Shown here: positions 24,218-64,000 of the stretch, in pieces
Position numbering within the stretch: position 1 is the first letter of the stretch
How the letters are laid out: every line of letters starts with the position of its first letter
DNA from: Ascidia mentula
Lineage: Eukaryota; Chordata; Ascidiacea; Phlebobranchia; Ascidiidae
Length of the DNA stretch: 64,000 bases
Direction of reading: 5' to 3'
Assembly (NCBI GenBank): GCA_947561715.1
Contig: OX387198.1
Coordinates: 6,014,001 to 6,078,000 of the forward strand
Notes under the pieces: model-generated
Told to the model about the DNA's origin: nothing
The model's input: the letters and a program-made list of their open reading frames with translations, nothing else
Databases searched by the model: none
Program-made: the position numbers and the translations under genes

Positions 24218-26343
24218 GTTTTTATCATGACCAGCAAGCGAACTGAAAGTCTATTAAATATACTGTATAAAAACAAAATAAGTTTTTTTTTCCATTTTCC
24301 TGTTTGTGTTGTGGATATTGGCTTCCACACAATATTTGGGTAATGTTGCACCGAACGTGACTCAATCGTCACGTGTTTTGTTTTAGTGCTGGTGTTGGTC
24401 GATCAGGAACTTATATTGCCATGGATATTTTGTTCGATGAGTTGGATGACAAAGGAACTGTCGACGTCCCGCAGACTGTACTAAGGATGAGGGCAAACAG
24501 AACAGATATGATCCAAAACCTTGTACATAACCAATGTGTGATTAAACTTAAGGTGTGATAAATATTTTGCTTTCGATCTACAGAAACAATACATATTCCT
24601 GTATAAGTTGTTAGTGGAACGAGAGGGTCTACAGATGGAAACAGACAGAGATGTAATTGAACTTCAGTCAATGACTTGTGATGAAATGTAAGAACTCAAT
24701 AAAAAAAAATGTTCAACAATTAACGTCGTTAACTCATTGCACTTTTAGTGCATGCAACTTTTAGTAGATGAATCGTTTTTTAAGAGCCTTTTTGCCCGTT
24801 TGCAGAACAAGAATTCAAGAATCTGAGTACAAAATCTTGTCCGATTGGCGATACGGAGAGGAGTGGCTTGAAGGAAACCCGAAGTTAACCACTTGTATGA
24901 TTACGTTTATTTCATGCCTCTGTTTTTCCAGAATTGACTACCATTATTCTTAAACACAAATATAGATAAAAACACTGCCCTCGGAATTTGGGATAAAGAT
25001 ATTGACGGACTAAGGAGTTTCAATGCATCGTTCATACATGTAATAATATAAATTGTTGTTTTTGACAAATATTGGCGATAAATATAAAAAATACAAATAT
25101 ACATGGACTATTTGCCAGGAAATGGACGCTTCTGAGTGTTTCATTGCTGCCCAAACCCCACCAAATGACCAGATGGACTTATTTTGGAAAATGGCTGTAC
25201 AAAATGGCACGCGTATGTTTGTGGATTTGAACATGGCAGTGAAGGTATAACCGGTACACAACAAAAAACATTTGGGGATTAAATGACATATTTTGTACTT
25301 TTTCTAGGTTTCTCAAGATAAACCTTTACGATATGGCGACGTTACTCTTACTGTGGAAGAACTATCGGAAAGTCACTTGTATAAATTGGCCACAATTGTG
25401 ATTACATCTTCATCAAAATCTTTCGTAAGTTTGACAAACACAAACTAAAACGTAGATTGTATTTAGTGATGAAGAAAGTTTTGTAAAATGCGTTTGCAAA
25501 ATGCCACTTTTTTAATGTCTAAAATTCAAAATTTGAAGTGAATGTCATTGTAAAATATAGTTTGAAACACCTAAAGGTTTTTGCCACTTGCGTTCAGACT
25601 GACACTCTGATGACATTCATACAAGTAAAGGGATGGAGTGAAGTTAAGAAACCTCTAAAGGAAGTGGAGTTTGTTGAAGTGATTGAAGCCATGCAAGGGA
25701 TGAAGAGAGATAGGAACTGTCGTTGTGTGTTGGTCATGTGCAGGTAATCATAAACCTAAATATATACGAATATATCAATAAAACCTTAAGCCTAAAAGAA
25801 ATAAGAAAAGCCTGTAACCATTAACGTAGCCATGTGGAAAGACCCATATCATTTTCAAAATTTTAGAAAAACATTCGAACCTCGCCAAAATGTCACGCTG
25901 ACTGCGCTACTAGCCATAACGCATAACTTCTTTGTCTCTTTAAATTTGCGGTGTAGTCATTTAAGTATTTTATGTTTTCGTATAGAAATTTGATGGTGCT
26001 GCACAAAGTTTTCCAAAGTACAGCAAACAAAGCTTTACACACCATTACATTTCATATTGTTGCAGCAATGGCAGAACGAGGACTGGTACTTTTATTGCTC
26101 TGACAAGAATAATTGAGCGTCTGAAGACTCAGCAAAGGGTGGATGTTTTCCGAACTGTGAAAGATTTACGAGACATGAGACCAAACATGCTGGATGACGA
26201 AGTAATTACGTTTTAACTACTTCCTCATATACCGCTATTAAACTATATTGCATGACTTTTATTTTAAGGTGCTCTACAAGTATTGCTACTCTGTGGTTTT
26301 GAAATACTTGGATGATTTCAGCACATACTCCAACTGCAAATGA
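24218..26343 (+). pseudogene. 3' half of a receptor tyrosine phosphatase, 5'-truncated duplicate
   Basis: Nine exons (24387-24522, 24584-24687, 24806-24894, 24966-25039, 25119-25244, 25308-25424, 25598-25743, 26066-26201, 26269-26343) keep reading phase and end in TGA. The first starts inside the PTP signature (AGVGRSGTYIA), so the cysteine and everything upstream of domain 1 are missing. The next exon gives the conserved KQYIFLYKLL. Exons 3-9 encode a second PTP domain: FIAAQTPPNDQ, a WPD-loop position reading GWSEVKKP, and MCSNGRTRTGTFIA, which keeps a C-x5-R loop but has Met for the usual His. The sequence is nearly identical to 50,913-52,874 of gene D. The duplication breakpoint lies in an intron near 24,218. 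The exons themselves are open, so a fusion transcript is possible, but I see no promoter or upstream coding exons. Confidence 0.88.
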
Positions 26344-26974
26344 CCAACTTTCATTTGTCAATACCTTGATATCTTTTGCATCATTACTAATCAATCATTT
26401 TCGATGTAATGTTCTGTTTTTTTATTTATATTATGTGATTATGCGCAAATTTGAGTTCTTTTGTTCACGGTAATTTATAACGTGCTCTTTTAACTGTTGT
26501 TATGCTCATTTCCATGCAAAATTATACAGAAACAAATCTTTTGTGAAAAGGGTTGTCCAAATGATTTTTGGCGAAAATCTTCATCGAAAAATATCTCAGT
26601 CTTTAAAAGTATCTTCATCTTGCGTATTTACTTATAAATACAGTCGTTCAAGAGTTAGATTAATATTTGAACCAGAAACAGGAGAAATGGTTCATTTAAA
26701 CATTTTTTGATGCAAAATGCGTTGCGTAGAAGCAGAAAAAATGTCACAGCATTTAGTAGTTATGCTCGGTATGAAGAAACAGGTACAGATGCATGACGCA
26801 TGAAACAGACAGAAACGTTATAATATTTTAATACCATGACAAGTGACGTCGAAACTTTTGTATTTTGTTTGGAAATTGTATTGTTTTTGCAAGCATCAAC
26901 AGGTACCACTTATGCCAATAAGTGCACATATGTTTGAAAAATGATAATAAACAACAAAGCTAACCTTACTTCAG
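26344..26974. other. Downstream flank of the RPTP copy
   Basis: Partly similar to 52,875-53,340 behind gene D (shared phrase GTCCAAATGATTTTTGGCG), so the duplication extends past the stop codon. No gene is supported here. Confidence 0.6.
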
Positions 26975-27625
26975 GCTGTAATATTACCTTTGCGTCACTA
27001 AATGACAAACTATTAACTTTGTCCGATGACCTTGTTAATGCAAACACTGCACAAGAAAAATGTACGTTGCTTGGTGGAAATCTACCCTTGACAGAATATC
27101 AAAGAATCACTAATCCAAATAATGACAAATAAATATACAACAGGTACGATTTGGGGCTTTTAGATTAAACATTATTAATACATGCGAGAAACTAACAATG
27201 AAAACAAGGTTTAACACAAGTTTGGATTTTCTATGACTTTGTGAATGGTGAAAGGTTTAGATTTCAAATGAATCAGACAGAGGTCAGTTACTGGAAAAGT
27301 GCAAAGCATCTTGGAGTTCTCTGGTACGTCGATTTCTATACAAGGAAATGCCACAGCTGTAATTGTGTAAAAGTTCCTCCCGTGCAAAAATTTGTGTCCT
27401 TCAGCAAACCGCAGCAATGTTGTTTGTAAATATAAATGAAACATTAATATTTGACTTTTAGGCCTTTTAGGCCTACATCTCTATATGTTGACAATGAATC
27501 TCATATAATCTGTAGAAAGGTAATAATATACTTGGCAATTTAGGCATCTGCATTGCTTTCTGGCTGCGTGCAAGCAAACATCACAACCTCGGTGTCAAGT
27601 CCTCCACCGACAAAGAACAGTGAAG
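26975..27625 (+). pseudogene. Broken CTLD/FN3 receptor copy
   Basis: Exon 2 (26975-27143) carries the family CTLD start ANTAQEKCTLLGGNL, but a small deletion shifts the frame near 27,110. Exon 3 (27209-27344) reads VWIFYDFV and VSYWKSAKHLGVLWYVDF, but its donor is mutated from GTAAAT to GAAATG. Exons 4-8 are deleted or decayed; a scrap of exon 4 lies near 27,400. The exon that ends the FN3 domain survives at 27544-27625 (LLSGCVQANITT), with a GTTGGT donor and phase-1 end. It sits after the RPTP fragment, as gene E sits after gene D, so this segment is part of the same duplication. Confidence 0.8.
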
Positions 27626-32274: not shown

Positions 32275-35200
32275 ATGTTTAATCAGATAATATCGGCTCT
32301 TGTCATTCTCGAAAGTGTTTGGTTGTCAAATGCAACATCAGGTAAGCTCTGATAAAAACTATTAGCAAAAGAGATAACAAGCTTTAAGATTCATCTATGT
32401 TTAGATTGCGACTTCACATTAACATCATTAAATGACACCATATTAACCTTGTCTAATGATCTTGTTGATGCAAATACTGCACAAGAGAAATGTTCGTTGC
32501 TTGGTGGAAACCTAGCCATTACCTATGACCAGAAAATAAATGCGACTTTAATTCAACTAATGACCAAAGAATATACAAAAGGTGTGCACTCGGTAAAGTT
32601 TGTGCATGATTAATAAAATTATTCAACAGTAAACACATTTTAGGTTTAATGCGACTTTGGATTTTCTATGATTTTGTGGGTGGGGATACATTTAGATTTC
32701 AAAACTATTCAAGTAACGTCAGCTACTGGAAAAGTGCAAAACAACTTGGTGTTCTCTGGTACATCGATTTCTTCGCAAGGTAACTTGTAAAGGCAGTCAG
32801 TATAATTTAAAACGTTCGGCATATTTTGAACCTACTTGGAGGTTCATACGATAACTTTGTCATTAAGAAGCCATGATAGAAATGAAGAAGAAATATTTTT
32901 CTGCGACGCACATAATGGGAAAAGAAGAAAATGGAGAGTGGAAGTTGGCAATTATTGTGACAGGCATGGTACACATTTTGCTGTAGTTTGCACATAATCC
33001 AAACATTCTGTTAAACAATGTGTAGCCAATAACATGAATTGTGTATAAGCTGCAGACAGATAGCCACTGATGAGACCTTTTGGGTCGAAACAGTGGCCAT
33101 CTGTCTGCAGCTTATACACAATTCTGTTAAACCTTTTTCTAAAGAAAATTGACTTACCAGCTGGCCGTTTTAAGTTGTAACATAAGAAACATTTATTTCA
33201 TTACCTTGAACAAACTTAACATCACGTTAACATTTTCTGATTACAGGATGGAATTTACAATTTTCCTTGTTTGCTTCAAAAGCACTTCAACCGGGATACA
33301 AAGAAATATACGTATACGAAAACAATATCTATTCTAACATGCTACGAAATGTTAACCATCCCTACGGAATATTTAATAAGTCTCGACAATCCACATTTAC
33401 TCCAGGTTGAGATAAGCTTCGTTAAAATCTTGAACATTCGGGAAAAATAACAATCTTGTTTTCTTCGTCTTAAGATATCAATGTTATGATCGGGGCTCGT
33501 TACGATTCCCAACTTGGTGGTTGGTTTTGGAGCGACGGATCTCCTGCAAACTATTCTGTTTCCAACGTTACATCCTGTCAGCAGGGGGCGCTCCATTATG
33601 GAGATGGTTGGGAGAAATCGAGTGTTGATTGTGTTGGACAACCAACTTACTACGCCTGTCAATTTAAATGTTAGTATGTAACAATGTGTGCAAAACAATG
33701 ATCTAAATTTTGTGCTCAAAAAGATTTTATTGTGTAGCAAAGTGATGTATCATCCACAATAAAGTAACTAAACATAAAATAACGCAGTAATGTTTCATGC
33801 AATGGGATGATTGGCAGGATCGCCCCACTGCTCATCTCCTCACTTGTAGATCACAGCTAAAGTATCGAGATCAGTTTAAAATCCTCGCAGCCCAAAATTG
33901 TTTAGATCTCGCTCCGGCTTGTCGATAAAAACTGGCTGATTCAGCTAGGCTGCAATGCCTGGGCTGCGAAGCTGGTTAGTCCATCGTCGTGAGATCCAAC
34001 TTTACCAGGAGCTTGATTTTTCGGATCTCGCTCCCACTCTTGTTGCTTTGCAAAACTTTTTAAAATTAAGGGTGTTGTTTTGTTGCACAAAACAAGTTTT
34101 TTTAAGCTAAGTAACACTTTCGTAACAAATGTGAAATGTTGGTTTAATATATTGTTTGATAAAAGTACGTCTTCCCGTAACAACTCAGCTTATAACAATT
34201 TTAAAATCCAACGTATGTAACGTTAGTTTAACTTAAATACTTTGCAGTTGTTGCATCAGTGACGAAAGTCGCAGGCAATTCCCCTCTTGTTGTTATTAGC
34301 TGGAATGGATTGACATCGCTTGTCAGGAATAACCTTTCTGCTAAGGTAACCCTGACATGCATAATTTCCCAGTAATTTACATTTCCCAGACTTATATCTT
34401 TTTAGGTAGAAATCACTGTGTTGGAATTAATGCACTCTGTTTACGTGCCGTACAAAAACGCATCCTTTCAATTAACAAACCTAAACTACTCAACAAACTA
34501 CACTTTTCGGGTTGGTATTTTCGATATCTAAATGAGCTAATAAAACTATCTTGCGTAAAACGTAACGAATGTAAAGTCTATTTTGTTTCACCTACCATTT
34601 CAAACATTGCCTAAGCATGTAAATTTCGCATTGTTATCAATAGGTGTCAGCGTTGGCTTCAGGTTGCGTGCAAGAAAACGTCACGACATTCCTGGAGGTA
34701 ACAACATCGGGTATTCCCCCAACGACTCACTTCAAACAGAGCAGTAAAATAACACTTAAGTATATAAGAGTTAGTTAATTAAGAATTAATATTTCTTGCA
34801 GTAACAACTTCAGCAGGATTTGCCAAGTCCTACAGTAACAATATCGAAAACTATATTCCCGGTTTACTAATTGGAGTGATTTCGGCTCTGCTTGTTCTCG
34901 CATCCATCCTAGTGTTTGGTCTATTGTTCTATAAACGAAGGTGAATGCCACTGATTACACATTTTACCTACGATATAAAGGGTATAGAATGGCATGACAT
35001 TTTTCATTTCCCTTCGTTGTGCGATGTGTACGTCCTATTTCCTAATTAGAAGTTTTGGTACATCGAAGTACGCCACGTTGGTTGTTTGGTTTTTATAAAA
35101 ACATTTATCCACGCACTTGTAAACGTTTTGACGGATTAAAATACAAACAGGTACGACCTGTCCAAACTAACCATTTTGGAACGATCAAAAAATCCATCAG

Positions 35201-35319
35201 GCGATCCAGGAAAATCTGACCTTGCCAATGTATCACATCGAACAACTGACCAGATTACGTATGTCAATGTCCCACCTTCATCTCATCAACGAAATCACGT
35301 TTACGAAAGTATGAAGTGA
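32275..35319 (+). CDS. Receptor A: CTLD-FN3-TM with ITIM-like tail
   Basis: Eleven exons, phase-consistent: 32275-32341, 32405-32581, 32644-32779, 32868-32968, 33247-33405, 33475-33669, 34248-34345, 34406-34510, 34644-34743, 34802-34940, 35151-35319. Exon 1 gives a signal peptide (MFNQIISALVILESVWLSNA). Exon 2 starts a CTLD (ANTAQEKCSLLGGNLA). Exons 3-4 give LWIFYDFVGG, EEIFFCDA and WRVEVGNYC. Exon 5 (GWNLQFSLFASK) has no family I can name. Exon 6 has the CTLD core WFWSDGSPANYS and YYACQFKC. Exons 7-9 form an FN3 domain (VVISWNGL; YTFRV-like end). Exon 10 is one TM helix ending LLFYKRR. The tail holds ITYVNV (35254-35271), an ITIM-type I-x-Y-x-x-V, and HVYESM just before the stop. Known biology: phosphorylated ITIMs recruit SH2 phosphatases. 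The ligand and the role are inferred only. I found no disabling change. Confidence 0.85.
33005..33132 (+). ncRNA. Hairpin insertion with hammerhead-ribozyme-like core
   Basis: A ~104-bp insert (33017-33120) in intron 4 of gene A, flanked by the direct repeat ATTCTGTTAAAC (33005-33016 and 33121-33132) and absent from the same intron of B, C, D and G. Long inverted arms (33037-33070 and 33091-33123) enclose CTGATGA (33067-33073), a GACC/GGTC stem II (74-77 with 83-86), GAAA (33087-33090), and a possible stem III ACAG/CTGT (90-93 with 101-104) followed by C33105, giving a GUC cleavage triplet. All hammerhead core positions are present. Stem I (GCTGCA region with TGCAGC) carries a 10-12 nt bulge on one side, so activity is uncertain. 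Such motifs are known in Penelope-like elements and retrozymes. Confidence 0.55.
33800..34060. repeat. Intron-6 repeat block (copy in gene A)
   Basis: A block beginning near GGCAGGATCGCCCCACTG, with inverted pieces CGCAGCCCAAAAT and CTGGGCTGCGAAGC about 60 bp apart, fills intron 6. Near-identical blocks lie in the same intron of B (38,318-38,540), C (43,060-43,280) and G (63,570-63,735), but not in D, E or F, whose intron 6 is short. It looks like an old insertion in the ancestor of A, B, C and G. Confidence 0.65.
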
Positions 35320-36916
35320 CGTAACACCTTTCTTTACAGGATGAATTTTTGCGACCAATTTTAGTTTGTGTTACGTAACTACGTCCAAACATGGAATTCA
35401 AGATATAAAAACAATGGTCACAAAAACAGCCAGATTAGGTCATTACATAGGTATGCGCATTTGTTCAACGCTTGTCATATCAAAGAGCACAGAAACGATT
35501 ACTTGTATTCTCACGCGATTCGATCTCGTTTCCGATGTGATATTAATTTCCAACCGCTAATAGTAATATTTACAATGTGTTTTACTTTTTCGTTTGTAAT
35601 GTGTTTTTCCATTCTGTGCAGTTTGAAGTAGGATTTCTTCAATGTCCTTGTGTTAATAAAAAAGTTGATTTGAACCACCATGTACCCAAGATTATCATTT
35701 ACGGGCGGTACAATACAACGTCTTTACTGTCAGGTGTGTTTGGCCCGTGGTGTTTATTCGGATAGGGTACAGAGAAAAGATGTATATGTTTTTTAAGATT
35801 AAGTGGAAGATTTTCATGTTTCGAAATCAATGAAAACAATTCTTTTCCTTTCAAAGTATTTTCATGCAGCGCATGGTCTTGTGATTTATTGCAGCATCCT
35901 ACGTACATATTTCAAACCCCACGCTTTGTTGTGGATTAAATACGCATCTTGTAAAACTCCTTTAACCTGCTCAAGCGGCGCCTAAACGTTGATTTTTGAA
36001 CAGCTCAAAGGGTTAAGGAACAACAAGACAGCTCTCTTTCTTATTTTGAATATCGTGAATACCTGATACCAGTCAATAGTGCAAAAATTATCATGCTTTT
36101 TTAACCCGTGTGTTCATCCCACAACAAAACGTGGGTTATAAAATATTCACGTGAGTCGCTGCATAAAATCACAACGCAATGCTTTGAGGTGTAATGTTTA
36201 GCAAACCTTGTGAAATAACTTAATAATCTGTTCTTCTGTCAGGCATAATAAGTTACAATATGCCTGGCAGCAACAAAAACATTATACTTGTGAAATAAGC
36301 CTACTACACATTTCGACGCCAAACCTTCGCTCCGTTTCGTTGTTTCATTTTCTAAATTAGTTTTTTTTTTCAGACAATGAACGTTGTATATTTTGTTGGG
36401 ATTAACTTGTATACCGAGGTGGTCTGTAGGCTGCATACAAACGTATCGTTGTTATCAAAACCCAGAGCCATTTAAGAATATGTTGATGCAGCCAGTTGCT
36501 GGTAGGCTATATTATTTTTGCGCACGCGTAAACAGAACTGCGATTGTCCGACCAGTAAGCGCAACTAAAGAAACCTTTAGATAAGAAAGTCTTGCCTTTA
36601 GCTAGTAGCTAAGCAGTAAGGAAATAACTTTGAAACACTCGTGTTAGTTTTAAAATATCGGTCAATATTAGTTACTCATAACAAAGCCAGAAATACCCTC
36701 AGTTTGGATATATAACGTTTGAAACAAAACATCATTTGTATCAAATCTATTAATTTACTGTCAGAAATAGTTGTTTTCACATCTCCATACAGTACGACGT
36801 ACAAATTCGTGTGATGCTGTATGTTTCATAAACGATAGTAAGAACGAATGCAAGTTTTATGTCAAATAAGTAAATTATGAAATACCAAATGTAGATGCAA
36901 TAGTTTCCAACACACA
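35320..36916. other. A-B intergenic spacer (repeated unit)
   Basis: No gene. The sequence is largely shared with the B-C and C-D spacers. Recurring landmarks are TGTGTTACGTAACTACGTCC after the stop codon, the hairpin CCCAC-AACAAAAC-GTGGG (36118-36135) followed at once by TTATAAAATA, and a TTTTTTTTTTTCAG tract at about 36,361-36,374 that could be a 5'-UTR or trans-splice acceptor. The short frames in the spacers drift freely between copies and are not genes. Confidence 0.6.
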
Positions 36917-39900
36917 ATGTTTACCAAGTTTGTGTCAGTTCTGCTCATTATACAAAATGTGGAAGTGTCAATGGCAACAAACGGTAAGCCTTTAAAGACA
37001 TTAAATGTTAATGAAAAGGACCAACAAGACATTGCGTTTATCTTTGTTTAGATTGCGCCCTCATATCAACATCATTGAATGACACCATATTAACTTTGTC
37101 TGATGATCTTGTCGATGCGAACACTGCACAAGAGAAATGTTCGTTGCTTGGTGGACATCTAACCATGACCGAAGACCTATATATCAACGAGTCAATAATT
37201 CAATTAATGACCAAACAATATACCAAAGGTGTGCGAATTCTGTACCTCATAACCAAACAACTTGTCAATAAATATATTTTAGGTTTAATGCGACTTTGGA
37301 TTTTCTATGATTTTGTGGGCGGGCATACATTCAGATTTCAAAACTATTCAACTAACGTCAGTTACTGGAAAAGTGCAAAACAACTTGGTGTACTTTGGTA
37401 CATAGATTTCTTCGCGAGGTAACTTGTAAAGGCGGTCAGTATAATTTACAGCGTTCGGCATATTTTGAACCTACTTGGAGGTTCATACGATAACTTTGTC
37501 ATTTAGAAGCCGTGATAGAAATGAAGAAGAAATATTTTTCTGCCACGCAATAAATGGCAAAAGAAGACGGTGGAGAGTGGGAGTTGGCAATAATTGTGAC
37601 GGACATGGTACACATTTTGCTGTAGTTTGCACATAATCCAAACATTTTGTTAAAGCTTTTTCTAAAGAAAACTGACTTACCAGCTAGCCGCATATAGTTG
37701 AAACATAAGAAACATTTATTTCATTGTGTTGAACAAAGTTAACACCACGTTAACATTTTCTGATTACAGGATGGCATTTACAATTTTCACTGTTTGCTTC
37801 AAAAACACTTCAACCGGGATACAAAGAAATATACGTATACGAAAACAACATCTATTCCAGCATGCTACGAAATGTTAACCATTCCTACGGCACCTTTACT
37901 CAGTCTCGACAATCCACATTTACTCCAGGTTGAGATTAGCATCGTTAAAATTGTGAACAATCACCAGAAATAACAATCTTGTTATCTTCGTTTTAAGATA
38001 TTAATGTTATTATTGGAGCTCGTTACAATTCCCTAGTTGGTGGTTGGTTTTGGAGCAATGGATCTCCTGCAAACTATTCTGTTTCCAACGTTACATCCTG
38101 CCAGCAGGGGGCGCTCCATTATGGCGATGGTTGGGAGAAATCGAGTGTTGATTGTGTTGGACAACCAGCTTACTACGCCTGTCAATTTAAATGTTAGTAT
38201 GTAACAATGTTGTAAATTTTGTGTTTAAAACGATTTAATATGTAGCAAAGTGATGTATCACCCGTAATTAACTAAACATAAAATAACGCAGTAATGTTTT
38301 ATGCAATGGCATGTTTGGCAGGATCGCCCCACTGCGCATCTCCTCACTTGTAGATCACAGCTTAAGTATAGAGATCAGTTTACAGGCTTCGCAGCCCAAA
38401 ATTTTTCAGATCTTGATTCGACTTCTCGAGAAAACTAGCTGACCCATCGAAGCTGCAATACCTGGGCTGTGAAGCTGTTTAGTCCATCGTCGTGGGTTCC
38501 AACTTTACCAGGAACTTGATTTTTCGGATCTCGCTCCGACACTTGTTGCTTTGTGAAACTTTTTGAATTTAAGGGTGTTATTTTGTTGCACAAACAAGCT
38601 AAAAGCTAAATAATGCGTTCCTAACAAATGTGAAATATTGGTTAATGTATTGCTTGGTAAAAGCACATCTTCCCAGTTCACAAGAGCATATAGCAATTTT
38701 GAAATCCTCAACCTATGTAAAGTCTGTTTGATTTGCATACTTTGCAGTTGTTGCATCAGTGACGAAAGTTGCAGGTAATTCCCCTCTTGTTGCAATAAGC
38801 TGGATTGGATTGACATCGCTTGTTAGGAATCATAACCTTTCAGCTAAGGTAACGTAACTTTGCCAGACATGATTCTCCAGTAATTTACATTGCCGAGACT
38901 TGATACATTTTAGGTAGAAATCACTGTATTGGAATTAAGGCATTCTGTTTACGTGCCTTACGAAAACGCATCAATTCAATTAACAAACCTGAACTACTCA
39001 ACAAACTACACTCTTCGGGTTGGTATTTAATGGCATGTAGTATTACAGTCTAATAAGAGACAAACGAAAGCAAATTTTCTCATGTTTTATCAACAATTTT
39101 AATCATGTCTAAGCATATAAATTTCCGTCCCTTTATTGTCAATAGGTGTCAGCGTTGGTTTCAGGTTGCGTGCAAGAAAACGTCACGACATTCGTGTCGG
39201 TAACAACATCGGGCATTCCCCCAACGACTCACGTCAACCAGAGCAGTAAAATAACAATTAATTATATAAGAGTTAGTTAATTAACAATTAATATTTCTTG
39301 CAGTAACAACTTCATCAGGATTTACCACGTCCAACACTAACAATATCGAAAACTACATTATCGGTTGGATAATTGGAGTGATTTCGGCTCTGCTTGTTCT
39401 CGCAGCCATCCTAGTATTTGGTATATTGTTCTATAAACGATGGTGAATGCGACTGAGTGCACATTTTACCTACGATATAAACACATTAACTTACGATGTA
39501 ATGCGTATTGTGAATAGGTAATCAACTTACAACTAAATAACAAGTGTCATTTGTGTCATAAGTAGAGCATTTAGTGCAGTCAACAACCTGAAGCGTGTAG
39601 TTTGGTTGGTCTAGTTTTATTAAAATATTAAATCTGATTTAAATACAACCAGATACGAAATGTCCAAACCAACCAATTTTCAACAAACAACCAATCAATC
39701 TGGCGCTTCAGATAAATCTGTCCATAATAATATATTACACAACCAAGCATCAAAAGTAGAAGGCTACCTTTCACCAAATGGTAGGTAACTTTTTATTTTA
39801 ATAACTGCAGCTGTCTAATCGTATACAATAATTGATAGAGCATCAAACAACTGGCCAGATTACGTATGCCAACGTCCAACCTTCCTCTCATCAACCAAAT

Positions 39901-48637: not shown

Positions 48638-48719
48638 GTAATGTTGGTCTTTTACTTATTATATTAAGTTGATATTAACGGCCTTGACCTTTTCAGAAAT
48701 ACACTTTATTTTATTGTAG

Positions 48720-48781: not shown

Positions 48782-48834
48782 ATAAAAGCAAATATAGTTA
48801 AAGTACAATTTAAACACCTAACCTTGTGGCTTAG

Positions 48835-51800
48835 ATGCAGTTCAGTCAAATGGAGTTTGTCAAAATTTGTCGGTTGACGCAGACACCTCCAAAAACAACC
48901 ATCAGAAAAAACTATTCAAAGTTTACGAGACCAACATTGCAGCGGATTTTCATTTGTTTAACGAAGAGCTTAGGGTGGGTTACAGTTTCTAAAATCTGTT
49001 GTTTAAGCGATAGCACAATTGGAAAATATACAAAGGAGAACCCAACGTCTCCATCAAATGATATACCTAGATTGTCTTGGAACTTTAATGGCCTAAATGT
49101 TACTTTACTTCATACAGCCTTCTCCATTCGCACAGGAAACTGTGTAATGCGTGGGTTTCACTGATTCGGCCTTTCATTGGCTTCATTCCACAGCTCTATA
49201 GTTAACGAATAGAATAAGTTTGTTTGGACAGTAGCTGGATGGCCAAGGCAGTTAATTCTACATGGGTTAATGTAAAATCAAAATATGTCCTTTCGTGCAG
49301 GTACTTCACAAACAAAGCAAAGAGAGTCAACAACCTTATGCGGTTTCACAACTTTCCGAAAACGCTACGCGAAACAGATACAAAAATATTTACCCGTGTA
49401 AGTGACAAAAATGACTCAAAACAGCAAGTATTTCCAGTTTGCTACACACTTTTTTGTCAGACGACCATGCCTGAGTAATACTGGTAAAAAAGAAAGACAA
49501 CGATTACATCAACGCGGCTTATATACCGGGTTACAGCAACGAGAAGAAGTTCATCGCTACTCAAGGTCCTAAGCTGGAAACGATCAATGATTTCTGGCTG
49601 ATGGTTTGGCAAGAAAAATCAACAATAATTGTGATGCTCACTGGTCTGATAGAAAAGGGAAAGGTTGGTCCTTTCGTCAGGTGTGCGTTGAACTAGATAT
49701 GGAGAGAAAGCTAAATATGCACAGACAAGTGCACAGCTTGGAATAGGGAATTGCTAATCGGGGATATTGCCAGCAGAATATTTGTAGGTTGCCATCAGTA
49801 CAACGAAATAATAAATTCTTGCCACAAACACCTGCAAAAAATAAGTGCAATAAGATATTGGTTTTGCCGGACATTTGTGTACATAAACTAGTTCGTCGAC
49901 ACTAAAATCGACTTACAAATCATATCCATCTCATGCCATGCATAGACGTGTAGTAATAAATGAAGCGCTGGCTCTTGTCGTGGGCACGGGTTTCAAAAAC
50001 AACGACAGTATCACATGTTGTTCCACCAACTGGGTATCGACGTAAAAATAACAGCACATCACTGTATATTGGCTTGGACACCGGGACAAACCATTAAACC
50101 ACGATTTCGGAAAGAACTTAAACAAGAAAAATGTAAAACCAGTATCTATGATGATGAAAATACATTCCAAAACACCTTTATTATCAACTTAACAAACTTA
50201 ATTGTCAACAATATCACTCTAGACCGACTGAGTTTGCCCGACAAACAAACGAATGGACAAAGAAAGTAAGAAAAGGAAAACAAACAAATATCAAAAATTT
50301 TCAATACTAACAAACGATCCATATACTAAATCGGTTTGTCCTGCTGATTCCTTTCCTTAACCTACTATAAATACGTGTTTACAGGCAAAGTGCGAACAAT
50401 ATTGGCCAAGTGTGGGATCACATGTGGAAGTAACGGCTGATTATGGAATTCAAACAGACCAAGAAGTTCTCTTAGGTGGAATATACATGCGAAAATTTAT
50501 TTTATGCCAAGGAGAGGTACGGCACATGTGGATTAATTGTGGGTTTCATATACATATGGACTTGTTTCAGGAAAAACGTATCGTTACCCAACTCCAATAC
50601 ACAACCTGGCCAGACCATGGAGTTCCTGTCACTACAACAAACATGATCTACCTACGTAAGATGGTGGAAGATTTACACAAAACTTCAGCTCCAATTATTG
50701 TACATTGCAGGTACAGAACGTGGAGAATTAATGTTAGTTTTTACAATGATCAGTAAGCATGATGATGAGACTAAAATTCTATTTACATATACAGTACAAA
50801 AATCATTTTTTTCCATTTTCTTGTGTGTGTAGAGGATATTGGCTTCCACGAAATATTTGGTCAAGCTATTGCAGCAGCGAACGTGATTTTAACGACACTT
50901 GTTTTGTTTTAGCGCTGGTGTTGGTCGGTCTGGAACTTATATTGCCATGGATATTTTATTCGATGAGTTGGACGACAAAGGAACTGTCGACGTCCCGCAG
51001 ACTGTACTACGGATGAGGGCAAACAGAACAGATATGATCCAAAACTTGGTACATAACCAATGTGTGATTAAACTTAAGTTGTGATAAATATTTTGCTTTC
51101 GATCTACAGAAACAATACATATTCCTGTATAAGTTGTTAGTGGAACGAGAGGGTCTACAGATGGAAACAGACAGAGATGTAATTGAACTTCAGTCAATGA
51201 CATCTGATGAAATGTAAGAACCCAATAAAAAAACGTTCAACAATTAAGTCGTTAATTTATTGCACTTTTAGTGCATGTAACTTTTAAGGTAGGTGAATCG
51301 TATTTTTAAGAGCCTTTTTGTCCGTTTGCAGAACAAGAATTCAAGAATCTGAGTACAAAATCTTGTCCGATTGGCGATACGGAGAGGAGTGGCTTGTAGG
51401 AAACCCGAAGTTAACCACTTGTATGATTACGTTTATTTTATGCCTCTGTTTTTCTACAATTGACTACCATTATTCTTACACACAAATATAGACAAAAACA
51501 CTGCCCTCGGAATTTGGGATAAAGATATTGACGGACTAAGGAGTTTCAATGCATCGTTCATACATGTAATAATATAAATTGTTGTTTTTGACAAATATTG
51601 GCGATAAATATAAAAAATACAAATATACATGGTCTATTTGCCAGGAAATGGACGCTTCTGAGTGTTTCATTGCTGCCCAAACCCCACCAAATGACCAGAT
51701 GGAGTTATTTTGGAAAATGGCTGTACAAAATGGCACGCGTATGTTTGTGGATTTGAACAAGGTAGTGAAGGTACAACCGGTGCACAACAAATAACATTTG

Positions 51801-52874
51801 GGGATTTAATGACAAAATTTGTACATTTTCTAGGTTTCTCAAGATAAACCTTTACGATATGGCGACGTTACTCTTACTGTGGAAGAACTTTCGGAAAGTC
51901 ACTCATATAAATTAGCCACAATTGTGATTACATCTTCATCACAATCTTTCGTAAGTTTGACAAAAACAAACTAAAACGTAGATTGTGTTCAATGATGAAG
52001 GAAGTTTGGTAAAATGCATTTGCAAAATGCCACTTTTTTAATGTTCAAAAGTCATGTCAAAATTTGAAGTGAATATCATTGCAAAATATAGTTTCAAACA
52101 CCTAAAGGTTTTTACCCCTTGCGTTCAGACTGACACTCTGATGACATTCGTACAAGTAAAGGGATGGAGTGAAGTTAAGAAACCACCAAAGGAAGTGGAG
52201 TTTGTTGAAGTGATTGAAGCCATGCAAGGGATGAAGAGAGATAGGAACTGTCGTTGTGTGTTGGTCATGTGCAGGTAAACAAATACCTAAATATTTACGA
52301 ATAAATCAATAGAATATGCAGCCAAAAAGAATTAAGAAAAGCCTGTAACCATTAACGTAGCCAGAGGGAAAGACCCATATCCCCTTTCAAAGTTTTAGAA
52401 AAACATTCCAACCTCGCCAAAATGTCACGCTGACTGCGCTATTAGCCATAACGCAAAACTTTTTTTTCTTTTTAAATTTGCGGTGTAGTCATTTAAGTAT
52501 GATATGTTTTCGTATAGAAATTTGATGGTGCTGCACTAAGTTTTCAGAGTACAGTAAACAAAGCTTTACACACTATTACATTTGATATTGTTGCAGCAAT
52601 GGCAGAACGAGGACTGGTACTTTTATTGCTCTGACAAGAATACTTGAACGCCTTAAGACTCAGCAAAGGGTGGATGTTTTCCGAACTGTGAAAGATTTAC
52701 GAGACATGAGACCAAACATGCTGGATGACAAAGTAATTACGTTTTAACTACTTCCTCATATACCGCTGTTAAACTATATTGCATGACTTTTATTTTAAGG
52801 TGCTCTACAAGTATTGCTACTCTGTAGTTTTGAAATACTTGGATGATTTCAGCACATACTCCAACTGCAAATGA
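48835..52874 (+). pseudogene. Gene D, cytoplasmic part: tandem PTP domains
   Basis: Exons 48835-48974 (juxtamembrane, VYETNIAADFHLFNEELR), 49301-49397 (NRYKNIYP), 49461-49663, 50385-50516 (KCEQYWP), 50571-50710 (TTWPDHGVP and VHC), 50913-51048 (SAGVGRSGTYIA), 51110-51213, 51332-51420, 51492-51565, 51645-51770, 51834-51950, 52129-52274, 52597-52732, 52800-52874. Domain 1 has the substrate-recognition KNxY, WPD and HCSAGVGRSG motifs of active PTPs. Domain 2 keeps C-x5-R (MCSNGRTRTG) but has WSE where active domains have WPD. Exon 49461-49663 is damaged: YDHA is followed by TGA (49472-49474, where the family has Arg) and a one-base shift occurs near 49,485-49,495 before [16 protein letters not shown]. 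Joins in phase to the receptor exon ending at 48637. Confidence 0.85.
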
Positions 52875-56500: not shown

Positions 56501-57329
56501 CGTCATTACTTTTCTTCAATTGTTTTTATATCATTTATGGTTGCCAAAGATGCAAAACATTTTTGTCGTTATTTTGCATTGCGTGCAATTTGTGGCATAA
56601 TTTTATTCACATAGCGTTCGTTGCAGTAAAACTCAACTTCAATACTGCTGTATTTAAATTGTCGATTGCTAGTGACGTGTGTTAAGTTATTGATTTTTTC
56701 GAAAAACAAAATAGGTTTTGAATTTCGACATGGGCAGAACTGAACACTGGATGTCGATAAAGAGACGAACAAAATCTTGTTTTGCTCATAAACTAATGTT
56801 GTTTTCCTAATATAAATCCTTTCTAGATGACAAAAATAATTCTGTAACACATTTTTCGTTCCGGGATACACAATTTTTATTCCTGAAACAGAACTTTTGA
56901 GAGCATTTTACACCTGTCATTTAACCGTATACGAAATTCTAAGCAGTGCAAAAAAATGAGGTTACGGGCATTTACAATGAGCAGTAAATAATATATAATG
57001 TGTTTAAACCAGTATGATCCAATGTTGTCATTGGACAGAGAAGAGGCTAATTATTAAAAAGCATGACGATTCGACTAAGGTCGCTCTGGATCCAACTGTT
57101 TGTTTTTACCTTTTCACATGCTGTAGCCGGGCTGTAACTTTCACAGCCTTCTATATTCCGTTGGAGTTTATACAAGGATGCGAATACGTTTGTGTGGCCA
57201 ATAGTTGAATACTGGACATCTTGAGTTCCTTGCAGTAAACACCATATATATGATTTTAAAAACGTCCAAAAAACAACAACAGTATAGAAAGGGCCAGTGA
57301 TAAAAAACAACAACTTCGATCTTGCAAAT
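56501..57329. other. Unassigned spacer after gene E
   Basis: No coding exon, RNA or repeat is recognised. The short frames here have no family resemblance. Confidence 0.4.
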
Positions 57330-57598
57330 CTACTGTGCCAAGGCAAAACATTGAGTTACCAACCTTGCATGAAAAGGTAAGAGAATTGGGCACACGGTGG
57401 AGAAACCGCATCAGACGCGGGTATGTTTGTAATATACATTACATCAACGCTGCTTATATACCGCGTTACAGCAACGAGAAGAAGTTCATCGCAACCCAAG
57501 GCCCTAAGCAGGAGACGATCAATGATTTCTGGCTGATGGTTTGGCAAGAAAACTCAACAATAATTGTGATGCTCACTGGTCTGATAGAAAAGGGAAAG
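57330..57598 (+). pseudogene. Orphan PTP domain-1 fragment
   Basis: One continuous open stretch reads IELPTLHEK, then a degenerate part, then [20 protein letters not shown] and [20 protein letters not shown], ending at a GTTGGT donor as in gene D (49663). The KNRY exon and the WPD and catalytic exons are absent. Its position after receptor E repeats the receptor-then-PTP order of gene D, so it is likely the remnant of another RPTP-type unit. Confidence 0.8.
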
Positions 57599-58465
57599 GT
57601 TGGTCCTCATTCACAAACAGGCTTTGCAAGGTCAATATGCCTTCGAAATCCACAACGTTTTGACAAAATGGAACGAAAGCAAAAGATACGTTAAATGAAC
57701 TTAATGTTGGACCTGAAAATTCATAGCCTCGTTAATCTTTTGCCATCACAGTATTTTGACCCGGTCACGAAAGTTTTTTGGGTTTGCCGTAAACAGGGCA
57801 GGTTCCAGGAAATGCGAGACCCGATTACAAAAATGAAAGATGGCCCTGCGGTTTCACAATACTCTTTTTTACCTTTTATATTTTACGTTTTTTTAACAAG
57901 GCAAAATGACACCCATTCAACTATACGCTGCTGTACATAGCAAAAGGTTTTGAGGCATTTAACCTTTGTGTATTGGGAAGGGAAGTTTTCTAGCATTGAC
58001 AAATGGTTAATGAGTGTTTTTCATAGGCGATGACGCAAGCGTGATTTCCCGGTTGCGGAGGCGGCTGACCTGCGTAGCGCGGTATCTTCTATAGTGTAAG
58101 GAAGTAAAGTTAAAGTATAGTGCTTGCGACACTTGCAGCGTAAGCTATGCGTAGTGTTAGGCGGGAAGCAAAACCAGCGAAAACTCCTCGAGCAAGGCAT
58201 TGTTATGTTTTGTTTGGAAGAGCTGTAGGTTAGCAGGCATGCAACGTTTTGTTTGGAAGAGACAAAAGGTTAGCAGGCATGCAACGTTATGCAACTAGGA
58301 GTGAAGTTGTTGCTTATTTTATGATACCAAACAATAAAATTCATATATTACATCAGCAAGCATGTAATATATGTAATGTAATATATGAAACGTAATATAT
58401 AAAAGAGACATTACACTAACGTAATTTTATGTTTTACAGAATGTAATGTAACATTGTGAGCCAAG
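57599..58465. other. Spacer upstream of gene F
   Basis: No gene. It contains a ~50-bp imperfect tandem duplication (two copies of GGTTAGCAGGCATGCAACGT at about 58,228 and 58,268) and a short AT-rich run of TGTAATATATGTAATG repeats (58,340-58,410) before the start codon of F. Confidence 0.5.
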
Positions 58466-60998
58466 ATGTTTTGTAAATTTGCATTTGCTCTGTTACTTTT
58501 TGGAATAACATTTGTGCCAAAGGCTACAGCTGGTAAGCCTTTATCGAAACGAACAACAGAAATAATATTTGAAATCATCTCCTAACTGTGAAAAATTGTC
58601 ATAGAATATAAATAACTTTTTTAGATTGTGGTCTCACTTCAACGGCATTAAATGACACTCTATTAACTTTGTCCGATGAACTCGTTGATGCGAACACTGC
58701 ACAAGAGAAATGTTCGTTGCTTGGTGGAAATCTAATCATGGCCGATGACCAAAATATCAACGAGTCGTTAATTCGGTTAATGACAGATAAATATACATCA
58801 GGTACGCTGTGAGAGCCTATTTAAATGGAAGCCGTATCAATACATTTGTACAAACTAACAGTGTAAATGTATAAGGTTTAACACGAGTTTGGACTTTCTA
58901 CGACTTTGTGGACGGGGAAAGGTTTAGATTTCAAAAAACTCCGAACGAGGTTAGTTACTGGAAAAGTGCGAAACAGCTTGTACCTCCAGTTCTCTGGTAC
59001 CTGGATTTATCTACAAGGTAAATGTCAAAACAATAACAATGTAGGGAATATTTTTACACATTTAATGATCAACAACTTCGTTAGTTCTTCGTGGAGAGGA
59101 AAAGTATCCGTAAAATTCCGTCCATGTAATAGTTTGTGTTCTTTAGGAAAACAGCAATGAGTCCAATCGAAGTTTTTTTCTGCGAAGCACCTACGTGGCC
59201 AAGAAGAAAATGGGGAGTTAGTGTTGGCAAGAATTGCGAGCAAAACACTCCTATGTGGAATGGTGAGTATATGTTACATCTACTTCACTAACGTCACGTT
59301 CCAATGTAAAGCATGTTGTTTGTACACGTGGTTGTAAAACGTTACTTTTGGTGCATTGTTTTTAGGTTGGCGGATGCACTTTTCTTTGTTTGCATCGGAA
59401 AAACAACAAGCAGGATTTAAGCAAATATATTTATATGAAAGTGAAATCATGGTATATCAAATGATAAGAAGTGTCAACAGCTCATACAGAACGTTCGTTG
59501 TTTTCAGTAAATCCACATTTATCCCGGGTAACATTTTAACTCGTTTGAAAAATCACGATAAAGCTTAATTTATAATTCAAAGACATCAATGTTATGATCG
59601 GGGCTCGTTACAATTCCCAACTTGGTGGTTGGTTTTGGAGCGACGGATCTCCTGCAAACTATTCTGTTCCCAACGCTACATCCTGCCAGCAAGGGGCGCT
59701 CCATTATGGAGATGGTTGGGAGAAATCGAGTGTTGATTGTGTTGGACAACCAGCTTACTACGCCTGTCAATTGAAATGTTAGTGTGTAACAGAAGATTTT
59801 AGTGTATACCAAAATGATGTACCATCCCGATAAGCTATACAGCGTGGAGTCATCGTGTGATTATAAAAAAAATTCAACAAACCCAACAAATATGGCAATT
59901 CCTTTAACATCAACACTTTGCAGTTGTTGCATCAGTGACGAAAGTTGCAGGCAGTCCTTCTGTAGTTGTTATTAGCTGGAATGGATTGACATCGCTTGTC
60001 AGGAATCATAACCTTTCTGCCAAGGTAATTCTTAACTAACACGTTTTCTCAATGATTTCCTATACCCATATTATTTCAGGTTGAAATCAATTCATTCGAG
60101 TTAATGTACTCTGTTTACGTGCCATACGAAAACGCATCAGTTCAATTAACACACCTTAACTACTCAACAAACTACACTTTTCGGGTTGGTATTTTTCGAT
60201 ATCTAAAACGTCAAATAACATTATCGTCCCTAATAGAGACAAAAAAAGGTAAGTCTCTCTTGTCTCACCTAAATTTAAAAACATGTCTAAGCATATAAAT
60301 GTCAGTCGCTTTTTTGTCGATAGGTGTCAGCGTTGATTTCAGGTTGCGTGCAAGAAAACATCACGACATTCCTGGAGGTTACAACATCGGGTATTATCGA
60401 GTCCAACAGTAGCAATGTCGAAAACTATATTCCCGGTTTACTAATTGGAGTGATTTCGGCTCTGCTTGTTCTCACAGCCATCCTAGTATTTGGTCTATTG
60501 TTCTATAAACGAAGGTGAATGCGACTGATTACACATTTTACCACCGATATAAAGGGTAATTAGAATTGCATGACATGTTTCATTTCCCTTCCTGGTGCGA
60601 TGTGTACGTCCTATTTCCTAATTAGAAGTTTTGGTACATCAAACAACGCCACGTTGGTTGTTTGGTTTTAATAAAAACATTTGTCCACGAACTTGTAAAC
60701 GTTTTGATGGATTCAAAAACAGATACGACATATCCAAACTAACCACTTCGGAACAACCAACAAATCAATCATGCTGTCCAAAAACAGCAGACCTTGCCAA
60801 TGTATCACATCAGCGAGTAACGGAAGATGAAGGCTACCTTTCATCAAACAGTTAGTAGCGAGGGTTTTTTTAACAACCGTTAAACTATGTGGATGTTAAT
60901 CGTACTTGACAGAGCATCAAACAACTGACCAGATTACGTATGTCAACGTCCCACCTTCCTCTCATCAACCAAATCACGTGTACGAAAGTATGAAGTGA
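58466..60998 (+). CDS. Receptor F: CTLD-FN3-TM with ITIM-like tail
   Basis: Eleven exons, all in phase: 58466-58532, 58625-58801, 58876-59017, 59147-59262, 59366-59527, 59583-59777, 59924-60024, 60080-60184, 60324-60514, 60723-60850, 60913-60998. The signal peptide is MFCKFAFALLLFGITFVPKA. Exons 3-5 differ strongly from A-D (EVFFCEAPTWPRRKWG, GWRMHFSLFASEKQQ), while exon 6 (WFWSDGSPANYS, YYACQLKC) is almost the same as in A. The stalk and TM exons are fused into one (60324-60514), with the stalk shortened; A, B and C have an intron there. The tail has EGYLSSN, ITYVNV (60933-60950) and HVYESM. No disabling change seen. Expected as an inhibitory-type surface receptor; this is inferred from motifs. 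Confidence 0.87.
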
Positions 60999-62142
60999 CG
61001 TAACAGCTTTCTTTACAGGATGAATATACATTATCTGAATCTTATACTTCACAATCGAGAACATGGTAAAAAAAATACAAAAAGACAATTAAGTTTGGAA
61101 ATATTTTTTAAAATGATTACATTTTGGTTAGTAATGGTTTTTTCCTGCAGTTTGGCCTAGGATTTCATAGTCATTTTGTTTGTAATAAAATTTGTGATTT
61201 CAATCTCCATGTATCCAAGTTGATCATTTTCTGGCTGTATAATAAAAAAAATTACGGTGAGGTGTGTTTTTCTTGGGGTGTTTATTTGGACAGGGAACAA
61301 AGAAAGGATGTGTCAGTATTTTTTAATGCTCAGCTGCAAGATTTTCGTCCTTCCAAATCCTTGAAAACATTCCGAAAATGTTTTCCAACTCTTCCTGAAC
61401 GAGTTTAAAGAGCCGAAACTTCGAAAGGCCTAATTTAATTCCAGTACGCGACTTATCACCGTCCTACCGAGTTACGTTACAGCAAAAGATCATCGTTTGG
61501 AAATAACATTCCACATTCCAAAGCTTTGTTTTCAGTGCTTGTGCATGTTCTATAATTTTTCAAAGCATTATAATCCTGTGCTTAGTGTTGTGATTTGCTG
61601 CAGTAACCAACGTCAATATTTCAAACAGCACGTTTTGGTGCGGAATAAAATACTGATTTTGTTGAAAAATAATTTTAGGTAGAGGTTACGCGCGGCGTTC
61701 GAAAAATACGTGATATGAGTCAATGCTGATGATTCAAAATGTCATGCCTTTCTTAACCCGTGTATTCATCCCACAACAAAGCGTGGGATGTAAACTAATC
61801 GAATGAGACGCTCCAACCTAACACAACACAATGCTTTGCGTTGTTATGTTTAGCAATGTAAATATAAACGTATCGTGCAGTGCCAGTTCAGAAGTTCTGC
61901 AGCAAGTTGGTAGAAACCGCCATAGAGCAAAGGCGTAAGAAACCTTCAGATAAGATAGTGCTATATTAAGCTGGTAGGTAAGCAGTAAAGAATTAGTTTT
62001 AAAACACTGGAGTATGTTTCAAACCTGTACATACAGATTGTATGATAAGATTGTTTGCAATGTAAGCACGAGCCACGAATATATGTTTTACAGATAACCA
62101 AGTTAAAATTGATTTACCAAATGCAGATATTCATAGTTCACA
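60999..62142. other. F-G intergenic spacer
   Basis: A diverged version of the A-B spacer. The CCCAC-loop-GTGGG hairpin is kept near 61,770-61,787, here without a clear TATA run. No gene is supported. Confidence 0.55.
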
Positions 62143-64000
62143 ATGTTCACCAAGTTTGTGTCTGTTCTGCTCATTATACAAAATGTGGAAGTGTCAATGG
62201 CAACAAACGGTAAACCTTTAAAGACATTAAATGTTAATCAAAAGGACCAACAAGACATTGCATTTATCTGTGTTTAGATTGCGGCCTCATATCAAAATCA
62301 TTGAATAACACCATATTAACCTTGTCCGATGATCTTGTTGATGCGAACACTGCACAAGAGAAATGTTCGTTGCTTGGTGGAAATCTAGCCATGACCAAAG
62401 ACCTATATATTAACGAGTTATTAATTGAAATGACCAAACAATATACAAAAGGTGTGCGAATTTTGTACCTCATAACCAAACAACTTGTCAATAAAGACAT
62501 TTTCGGTTTGACACGACTTTGGATTTTCTACGATTTTGTGGGCGGGCATACATTCAGATTTCAAAACTATTCAAGTAACATCAGTTACTGGAAAAGTGCA
62601 AAACAACTTGGTGTACTTTGGTACATCGATTTCTTCACAAGGTAATGTAAAGGCAGTCAGTATCATTTAACAATGTTTGGCAAAATTTAAACCTACTTAG
62701 AGGTTCATACGATAACTTTATCATTTAGAAGCCATGATGGAAATGAGGAAGAAATATTTTTCTGCGAGGCACTAAATGGGGAAAGAAGAAAGTGGAGATT
62801 GACAGTTGGCAAAAACTGTGAACAGGGTGTAAAACACAACTTAACCTGGAATGGTACTAATTGTGTCATTGTTTGCACATAGCAAGAACATTATGTTAAG
62901 TGTGTCGCTGGTGAAAATTGAATTTACCAGTTAAACCCCTATAAGTTGACCGGTTATAACATAAGACTGGTTATTTCATTAACTTTCGATTTCACTGCGT
63001 TTTCTATTTCAGGTTGGAATTTACAATTTTCTCTGTTTGCACCAAAAACAGTCAAACCGGGATTCAAGGAAATATACGTGTTCAAAAACAATATCCATTC
63101 TAGCATGGTACGAGAAACCAACCATTCCTACGGAACCTTTAATCAATACGAGCAATACACATTTACTCCAGGTTAAGATAAACTTTGTTATGTCTTTAAC
63201 ATTGTTAAACGACACAACTCTTTTTCTTCGTTTTAAGATATCAATGTTATGATCGGGGCTCGTTAACAATTCCCAACTTGGAGGTTGGTTTTGGAGCGAC
63301 GGATCTCCTGCAAACTATTCTGTTTCCAACGTTACATCCTGTCAGCAGGGGGCGCTCCATTATGGAGATGGTTGGGAGAAATCGAGTGTTAATTGTGTTG
63401 GACAACCAGCTTACTACGCCTGTCAATTTAAATGTTAGTATGTAACAATGTGTGCGAAATAATGTTTTAAGTTTTGTGTTTAAAACGATTTATTATGTAG
63501 CAAAGTGATGTATCATCCACAATTAACTAAACCTAAAATAACGCAGTAATGTTTCATGCAATGGTATGATTGGCAGGATCGCCCCACTGCGCATGTCCTC
63601 ACTTGTCGATCACAGCTAACGTATCGCGATCAGTTTACAGGCTTCGCAGCCCAAATGTTTTTCAGATCTCGCTACCACTTGTCGGTAAAGACTGACTGAC
63701 TCAGCTAGACTGCAATGCCTGGGCTGGTTAGCCCAACTTTTTGTAACTAAGGGTGTTATTTTGTTGCACAAACAAGTTTTTCTAAGATAAATAACGCGTT
63801 CGTAACAAATGTGAAATATTGTGTTTATTATATTGTTTGATAAAAGCACATCTTCCCATTTCAACTCAGCATACAACAATTTTAAAATCCAACGTATGTA
63901 AAGTCAGTTTCACATAAATACTTTGCAGTTGTTACATCCGTGACGAAAGTCGCAGACAATTCCCCTCTTGTTGTTATTAGCTGGAATGGATTGACATCGC
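62143..64000 (+). pseudogene. Receptor G: frameshifted copy, cut by the window end
   Basis: Exons 62143-62209 (MFTKFVSVLLIIQNVEVSMA), 62278-62451, 62506-62641, 62729-62853, 63013-63171, 63238-63433, and exon 7 from 63929, running off the end. Exon 2 is one codon shorter than its relatives. The acceptor before exon 3 is CG instead of AG (62504-62505), but the 54-nt intron is open and in frame, so retention would add 18 residues. Exon 6 carries one extra base (exon length 196 instead of 195), turning GCTCGTTAC into GCTCGTTAAC and creating TAA at 63264-63266, before the CTLD core. Exons 4-5 resemble F in ending TWNG, but A-C elsewhere. Probably a pseudogene, unless the insertion is a sequence error. 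Confidence 0.8.

Follow-up and report, generated by a model that had tools for sequence, protein, structure and literature searches.

A candidate paired-receptor-like array in the tunicate Ascidia mentula, with one ectodomain family on predicted receptor phosphatases and on tyrosine tails

Results

The receptor array

The window analysed here is a 64,000-nucleotide stretch of the Ascidia mentula genome (C2:6014001-6078000; genome of 195.8 Mb in 79 contigs). It lies within a tandem array of predicted type-I receptors, in which one ectodomain family appears to be joined either to two protein tyrosine phosphatase (PTP) domains or to a brief tail that bears tyrosine motifs. An earlier note on the window had described seven head-to-tail receptor copies, and this was borne out by a repeat scan and exon mapping, which found seven such units from 32 kb onwards, labelled A to G, the last of them running off the window. 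In window positions, with TM standing for transmembrane segment, FN3 for fibronectin type III domain and RPTP for receptor PTP, they are:

32275..35320, forward strand: copy A, signal peptide, ectodomain exons E1-E5, FN3, TM and tyrosine tail ITYVNV/YESM
36917..39925, forward strand: copy B, tyrosine-tail unit, ITYANV/YEIM
41459..44668, forward strand: copy C, tyrosine-tail unit, ITYANV/YESM
46023..52874, forward strand: copy D, RPTP unit of 24 in-phase exons, two premature TGA codons
53843..56497, forward strand: copy E, third tail subtype (TAIL3), VTYTNV/YESV, E2 disrupted
58612..60999, forward strand: copy F, tyrosine-tail unit, ITYVNV/YESM
62143..64000, forward strand: copy G, tyrosine-tail unit, E5 acceptor lost, continuing to window-equivalent position 65110 past the window end

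The tails of copies A, B, C, E and F, described earlier as I/V-T-Y-x-N-V followed by Y-x-x-M/V, all read as claimed. The copies had also been said to share C-type lectin-like domain (CTLD) and FN3 exons in the same order and phase. Intron phases do agree between copies at most junctions, not at all of them, but the lectin-like part is better read as a single split domain and FN3 is weak in Pfam (see below). Nor did an intact exon set hold for every copy, E2 being disrupted in copy E and the E5 acceptor being gone from copy G. The tail exons of copy A are fused, with loss of the usual intron between them, and a search with one query did not find the signal-peptide exon of copies E and F.

A genome-wide exon search with the lectin exon E5 gave 95 matches. 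Forty-six near-full-length copies at 85-100% identity make up the array that contains the window (array 1; C2:5.964-6.319 Mb, about 360 kb), and 28 copies at 70-76% identity form a sister array at C2:4.176-4.349 Mb, about 1.6 Mb away; the remainder are partial or lie elsewhere. We tiled 260 kb of array 1, including the window, and 20 kb of the sister array. The tiled part of array 1 contains 32 units with E1-E4 and a near-full E5, namely 19 tail, 3 TAIL3, 8 PTP and 2 unassigned units. When genome-wide rows were grouped by hand, the WPD-bearing PTP exon of the family was placed at no fewer than about 15 sites in array 1 and at least 9 in the sister array. For the terminal tail exon of array 1 there were at least 32 matches within array 1 and one on contig C52 (E up to 1); four of them are weak TAIL3 matches, and two or more are additional copies inside a unit. 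The sister-array tail exon had at least 22. All of these counts are lower bounds. They put the ratio of PTP units to tail units at about one to two in both arrays.

Receptor phosphatase units

The clearest phosphatase units lie outside the window. Unit R1 (C2:5978468-5985399) yields a gene model of 24 exons and 1057 amino acids with no stop and with GT-AG borders at every intron. It encodes, in this order, a signal peptide, E1-E5, FN3, TM, a juxtamembrane segment, and PTP domains D1 and D2, signal peptide and TM being judged by eye. Thus, as a gene model, R1 has the layout of an RPTP, with a signal peptide, a single TM and cytoplasmic PTP domains in one gene. The other seven PTP units were modelled by projecting R1 onto them. 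R4 and R8 are, like R1, complete, stop-free 24-exon in-phase models with GT-AG introns (1057-1130 amino acids for the three). R5 is stop-free with one projected donor that is not GT, R7 is stop-free with one AT acceptor and one GC donor, R6 has a one-base frameshift in F1, and for R2 the projection gave no model. We also considered PTP exons that belong to a separate neighbouring gene; this is judged unlikely, because exons and phases continue from the ectodomain through TM into PTP in R1, R4 and R8.

Copy D, on which the claim of an in-phase fusion to two PTP domains had been based, does connect ectodomain, FN3 and TM to both PTP domains, with its 24 exons in phase and GT-AG at the borders. 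It also has, however, two premature TGA codons that had not been reported. Its main parts are:

46158..47496, forward strand: ectodomain exons E1-E5, with CTLD halves E1 and E5 around E2-E4 (split reading taken from three other units)
48284..48398, forward strand: TM exon, in-frame TGA at 48334-48336
49301..51213, forward strand: PTP D1, HCSAGVGRSGT and WPD loop, in-frame TGA at 49472-49474
51332..52874, forward strand: PTP D2, MCSNGRTRTG, WSE instead of WPD, plus the C-terminal exon

Because of the two in-frame TGA codons copy D is probably a pseudogene and a poor witness for the fusion; as proof of a working fusion it is ruled out.

The PTP part of R1 is recognised by Pfam with 362.3 bits, in two stretches. 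D1 contains HCSAGVGRSGT and WPDHGVP, in agreement with the catalytic signature HCxxGxGRS(T) and WPD, whereas D2 has neither the His nor the WPD expected of a domain that is active. Against the PDB the best match was RPTPalpha (377.5 bits), followed by RPTPepsilon (357.7), RPTP-sigma (349.9), LAR (337.7) and, lower, RPTP-gamma, RPTP-zeta and CD45. The RPTPalpha alignment reaches the last residue of the R1 query, where YSNCK stands opposite YANFK. By best PDB match the phosphatase class is provisionally R4-like (RPTPalpha-like), with D1 intact. The ratio of nonsynonymous to synonymous substitution rates (dN/dS) among seven of the eight PTP units (R2 left out) was 0.21 for D1, 0.41 for D2 and 0.36 for the ectodomain. 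D1 is under purifying selection.

The ectodomain

When E1 and E5 were joined directly, a join chosen after the sequence had been seen, Pfam Lectin_C was matched above its cut-off of 22.6 bits in three of three units, one of them from the sister array (24.6, 29.3 and 23.5 bits). The natural E1-E5 order scored 21.3 bits, under the cut-off; E5 alone matched nothing, and E2-E4 gave no lectin match. An ectodomain profile run against the PDB gave mostly weak CTLD matches (E 0.2-0.6), and the FN3 part reached 15.0-21.4 bits in Pfam against a cut-off of 25. We read the ectodomain as one CTLD in two halves, E1 and E5, split by an E2-E4 insert and followed by an FN3-like stem. Two separate CTLDs were considered and dropped, as E1 and E5 read better as a single domain. 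Among the ectodomain exons dN/dS peaks at E3, which is part of the insert (0.56; 32 units). R1 gave no Ig or sushi match in Pfam at E up to 1, and a protein database search returned a single weak match.

Tyrosine tails

Three tail tyrosines, the juxtamembrane, ITY and C-terminal ones, are Tyr in all 20 TM-linked tail units of an alignment made without a motif rule. At a further position, EGY, Tyr is found in 12 units and Asn in 7, and the position is absent in one. Among the terminal tail exons of array 1 in the tiled region, 22 of 22 have ITYxNV; two of them, both second copies within a unit, have Asn in place of the C-terminal Tyr. YExM occurs in 19 of 20 array-1 units, with Met changed to Ile in the other.

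The consensus of the immunoreceptor tyrosine-based inhibitory motif (ITIM) is (S/I/V/L)xYxx(I/V/L); YExM is a PI3K-type motif, and YxN is a Grb2-SH2-like site. ITYxNV fits the ITIM consensus in all 22 array-1 terminal exons, as does VTYTNV in the two TAIL3 exons read, compared with 0 of 20 for the sister-array motifs.

For dN/dS, 17 of 18 tails picked by rule were used, the fused unit A being left out; the rule required Y-x-[NSD]-[VI] plus Y-x-x-[MVL], came close to requiring the juxtamembrane Tyr as well, and passed over 2 of the 20 units. Values were 0.16 for RYDMSK, 0.56 for xYESM and 1.32 outside the motifs.

The sister array

A PTP unit starting at C2:4179129 in the sister array was matched by exons P1a-P1e, P2a, P2x, P2b, P2d, P2e and the last exon; P2c had no match in the same exon search. 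Its C-terminus reads QYSNFK and then a stop. Tails were read at 20 loci out of the 22 matches. By hand count, TYMN is present at 19 of the 20, TYMN followed by V or I at 16, Pro at position −2 at all 20 and VYEN or VYDN at the end at 19, and no other tyrosine of these 20 terminal exons fits the ITIM consensus. Across both arrays, T-Y-x-N and the final V-Y are conserved, in contrast to YxxM and to the residue at −2 of the ITIM. Both unit types, ectodomain with tandem PTP and ectodomain with tyrosine tail, are present in both arrays.

Exchange of ectodomains between outputs

Trees were built from 30 units, the two unassigned ones being dropped. The E1-E5 tree has five changes of output label, of which starred branches force at least four, and a single PTP clade is rejected (approximately unbiased test, p-AU 9e-5). 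Without E5, the E1-E4 tree has six label changes, a single PTP clade is rejected at p-AU 1e-9, and 93-100 of 500 label shuffles are as low. Mixing of labels purely through homogenisation of E5 is thus ruled out, as E1-E4 are still mixed. The FN3 stem tree shows one label change, with the classes apart at 100/100.

Individual pairs show the same break. PTP unit R8 and tail unit 6165563 are 92.6% identical in E1-E4 and 56.9% in FN3, whereas R8 and PTP unit R5 are 68.9% identical in E1-E4 and 92.2% in FN3. The break falls between E4 and the FN3 stem, and cannot be placed more finely because E5 is too uniform. These comparisons indicate that ectodomains have been exchanged between the PTP and tail classes. 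As in paired receptors, highly similar ectodomains are found on different cytoplasmic outputs in one cluster.

Discussion

Proposed organization and its weighing

We propose, with a probability of roughly 0.62, that the locus is a tunicate tandem array of type-I receptors in which one ectodomain family is carried on a PTP class (P) and a tail class (T), in the manner of paired receptors. Class P would combine the split-CTLD/FN3-like ectodomain with an R4-like tandem phosphatase whose D1 is intact; class T would combine the same ectodomain family with a short tail in which three tyrosines are conserved and the middle one belongs to T-Y-x-N. Through recombination or conversion, ectodomains would be redistributed between the classes, so that similar recognition surfaces may come with either output. 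Shared or related ligands would then draw P and T receptors together or separate them, and the balance between phosphorylation of the T tails, docking Grb2-type or other SH2 proteins, and phosphatase action would set the response. The phosphatase may target the tails themselves or Src-family kinases. The architecture, its presence in both arrays, the exchange, the D1 constraint and the tyrosine conservation can be read from the DNA; expression, ligand sharing, signalling direction and a plausible immune or self/non-self role are what we infer. A more ambitious version, a germline combinatorial system that deals exchangeable lectin-like ectodomains onto an adaptor tail and an RPTPalpha-like phosphatase with matched specificity in two diverged arrays, is offered tentatively, at somewhat less than even odds.

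Several observations weigh against the proposed two-class array. For R1 as a whole protein, Pfam returned neither Lectin_C nor fn3 at E up to 1, and just three of the eight RPTP units of the tiled 260 kb are intact in all exons and splice sites. The R4-type assignment is a best match by score, with the sigma and LAR scores close behind. Output labels are still clustered on the E1-E5 tree (14-16 of 500 shuffles as low), so that exchange is not free, and E5 alone fails to reject one PTP clade (p-AU 0.23). The whole-tail dN/dS is 1.08, and that of ITYxNV is 0.86 with few changes. The case for tail constraint consequently rests on the invariant tyrosines and on the sister array, the latter being the stronger argument, since 26 of 71 tail columns are invariant and three invariant tyrosine columns are not rare in themselves.

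The earlier note had taken one ectodomain family to serve two inhibitory outputs, with the tails as ITIMs that recruit SHP-type phosphatases and the RPTPs dephosphorylating directly. The two outputs stand, on the R1, R4 and R8 models, the sister array and the exchange, but inhibition by both of them is not supported, and we consider it quite improbable. The array-1 ITYxNV and the two TAIL3 VTYTNV motifs do fit the ITIM consensus; the array-1 tails, however, also have the PI3K-type motif YExM in nearly every unit, and all 20 sister loci have PTYM at this place, where Pro occupies −2, and no ITIM-fitting tyrosine elsewhere in the exon. Moreover, the phosphatase is closest to RPTPalpha, which according to the available text of PMC7959691 dephosphorylates the inhibitory Tyr527 of Src, thereby activating Src, and recruits Grb2 when phosphorylated on Tyr789. 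For this reason an activating role of the phosphatase is no less likely than an inhibitory role. A co-operating activating system, in which the RPTP arm activates Src-family kinases as RPTPalpha or CD45 would and the tails are substrates and adaptor docks, seems to us somewhat doubtful. RPTPalpha is the top PDB match, YxN recurs in the tails of both arrays, and the C-termini YSNCK (array 1) and QYSNFK (sister array) match the YANFK stretch of RPTPalpha, whose Tyr789 binds Grb2 (PMC7959691, available text). Against this, a short C-terminal motif may be kept under some different constraint, and inhibitory receptors have YxN motifs as well.

If the array were mostly non-functional duplication debris, its duality would reflect chance fusions of receptor and PTP fragments. 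Such a history would account for the lesions in D, R6, E and G, the failure to model R2, and the orphan PTP and ectodomain pieces and the satellite within the array, but it is made very unlikely by the three complete 24-exon RPTP models, by the purifying selection that acts on D1 and by the recurrence of both unit types in a sister array of 70-76% identity. The receptors might also serve chemosensation or gamete recognition and not immunity or allorecognition, as large tandem arrays of lectin receptors occur in several contexts and the sequence names neither ligand nor tissue. Nothing specific stands against this; tyrosine tails and RPTPs are, however, more like immune signalling than like known chemosensors, and we regard the alternative as unlikely.

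Comparison with known systems

The array appears to realise the paired-receptor principle of immune recognition in a new way. The paired receptors of vertebrates (KIR, Ly49/NKR-P1, SIRP, PILR) are likewise clustered, with near-identical ectodomains, differing outputs and exchange, but their outputs are ITIM tails versus coupling to ITAM adaptors (immunoreceptor tyrosine-based activation motif). We know of no paired receptor with a built-in receptor PTP as one arm. The Alr receptors of Hydractinia are also clustered invertebrate recognition receptors with tyrosine motifs; their ectodomains, in contrast, are Ig-like, and to our knowledge they have no PTP arm. R4-type RPTPs (RPTPalpha, RPTPepsilon) share with class P the tandem PTP, an active-type D1, a degenerate D2 and a C-terminal YxNxK; RPTPalpha has a short glycosylated ectodomain, compared with the CTLD-FN3 ectodomain of a large variable family here. 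No CTLD-FN3 family with both RPTP and tyrosine-tail members was found among the top-listed titles and abstracts of a literature search that left out most subscription journals and bioRxiv preprints.

Among tunicates, the fester co-receptors (FcoRs) of Botryllus are the nearest parallel described in the available text of PMC12065747, being clustered multigene type-I receptors with tyrosine tails, of ITIM, hemITAM or core Y-x-x-I/L/V motifs, and alternative outputs. They differ in their Ig/sushi ectodomains; that text mentions RPTPs separately, as expressed in Botryllus ampullae with homology to CD45, and describes no RPTP arm with a shared ectodomain. ITAM and ITIM in the context of Hydractinia Alr are mentioned there as well (PMC12065747). 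In Ciona, Ptpra is expressed in the notochord (PMC11728170, available text).

If the proposed organization is correct, a receptor phosphatase as partner arm, together with ectodomain exchange, would be another way of tying recognition to tyrosine dephosphorylation. Tunicate self/non-self biology would gain a candidate family beyond the Ig/sushi fester system, and the array would offer a natural test of the balance between a phosphatase and substrate tails when both see the same ligand.

Other features of the arrays and related loci

The window contains three fragments outside units A to G, among them the two further PTP pieces that the earlier note had mentioned:

24385..26213, forward strand: orphan PTP exons P1d-P2e, a truncated RPTP unit
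26977..27350, forward strand: isolated ectodomain exons E1 and E2
57260..57691, forward strand: orphan remnant of a PTP D1 exon, lying behind copy E

A 191-bp tandem satellite occupies, with breaks, about 25 kb inside the array (window 1 to about 23100; C2 about 6009500-6035500). It is flanked by a truncated unit upstream (from C2:6003022) and by the orphan PTP exons of 24385-26213. Four TAIL3 units (window 53843-57691; C2:5986676, 6098920 and 6140409) each come after a PTP unit, and at a distance of some 1 to 7 kb their tails are followed by PTP D1 exon remnants, as though the PTP part had been pushed aside by a tail cassette. LCCL-domain exons were found at five places in the tiled array (window 28168-28776; C2:5966029, 6117449, 6122977 and 6203356), behind an E1-E2 or E1-FN3 ectodomain. 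The main LCCL exon of the window scores 45.0 bits, over the cut-off, and the single LCCL exon read out ends in a stop. LCCL units are possibly a third, secreted kind of product, or relics.

Elsewhere in the genome, C52:16798372-16807284 carries a lectin exon 93% identical to that of copy F, a tail exon of the array-1 type and PTP pieces. Contig C72 has a PTP cluster at about 5.3-5.5 Mb, within which C72:5516001-5522000 contains a Lectin_C domain over the cut-off; the same-strand order there is Lectin_C, Ig, CTLD-half, FN3 and PTP exons, the Ig, CTLD-half and FN3 being under their cut-offs. Dozens more PTP exons are clustered at C72:16.9-17.4 Mb.

A cellulose synthase with a GH6 domain is a tunicate hallmark, and a tunicate origin is supported here by two pairs of exon groups. 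GT2 exons of cellulose-synthase type at C71:8043846 and at C52:18244896 have GH6 exons on their own strand 2.5 and 3.7 kb further downstream, at C71:8046784 and C52:18248788, at two separate loci that span C71:8043846-8047068 and C52:18244896-18249069.

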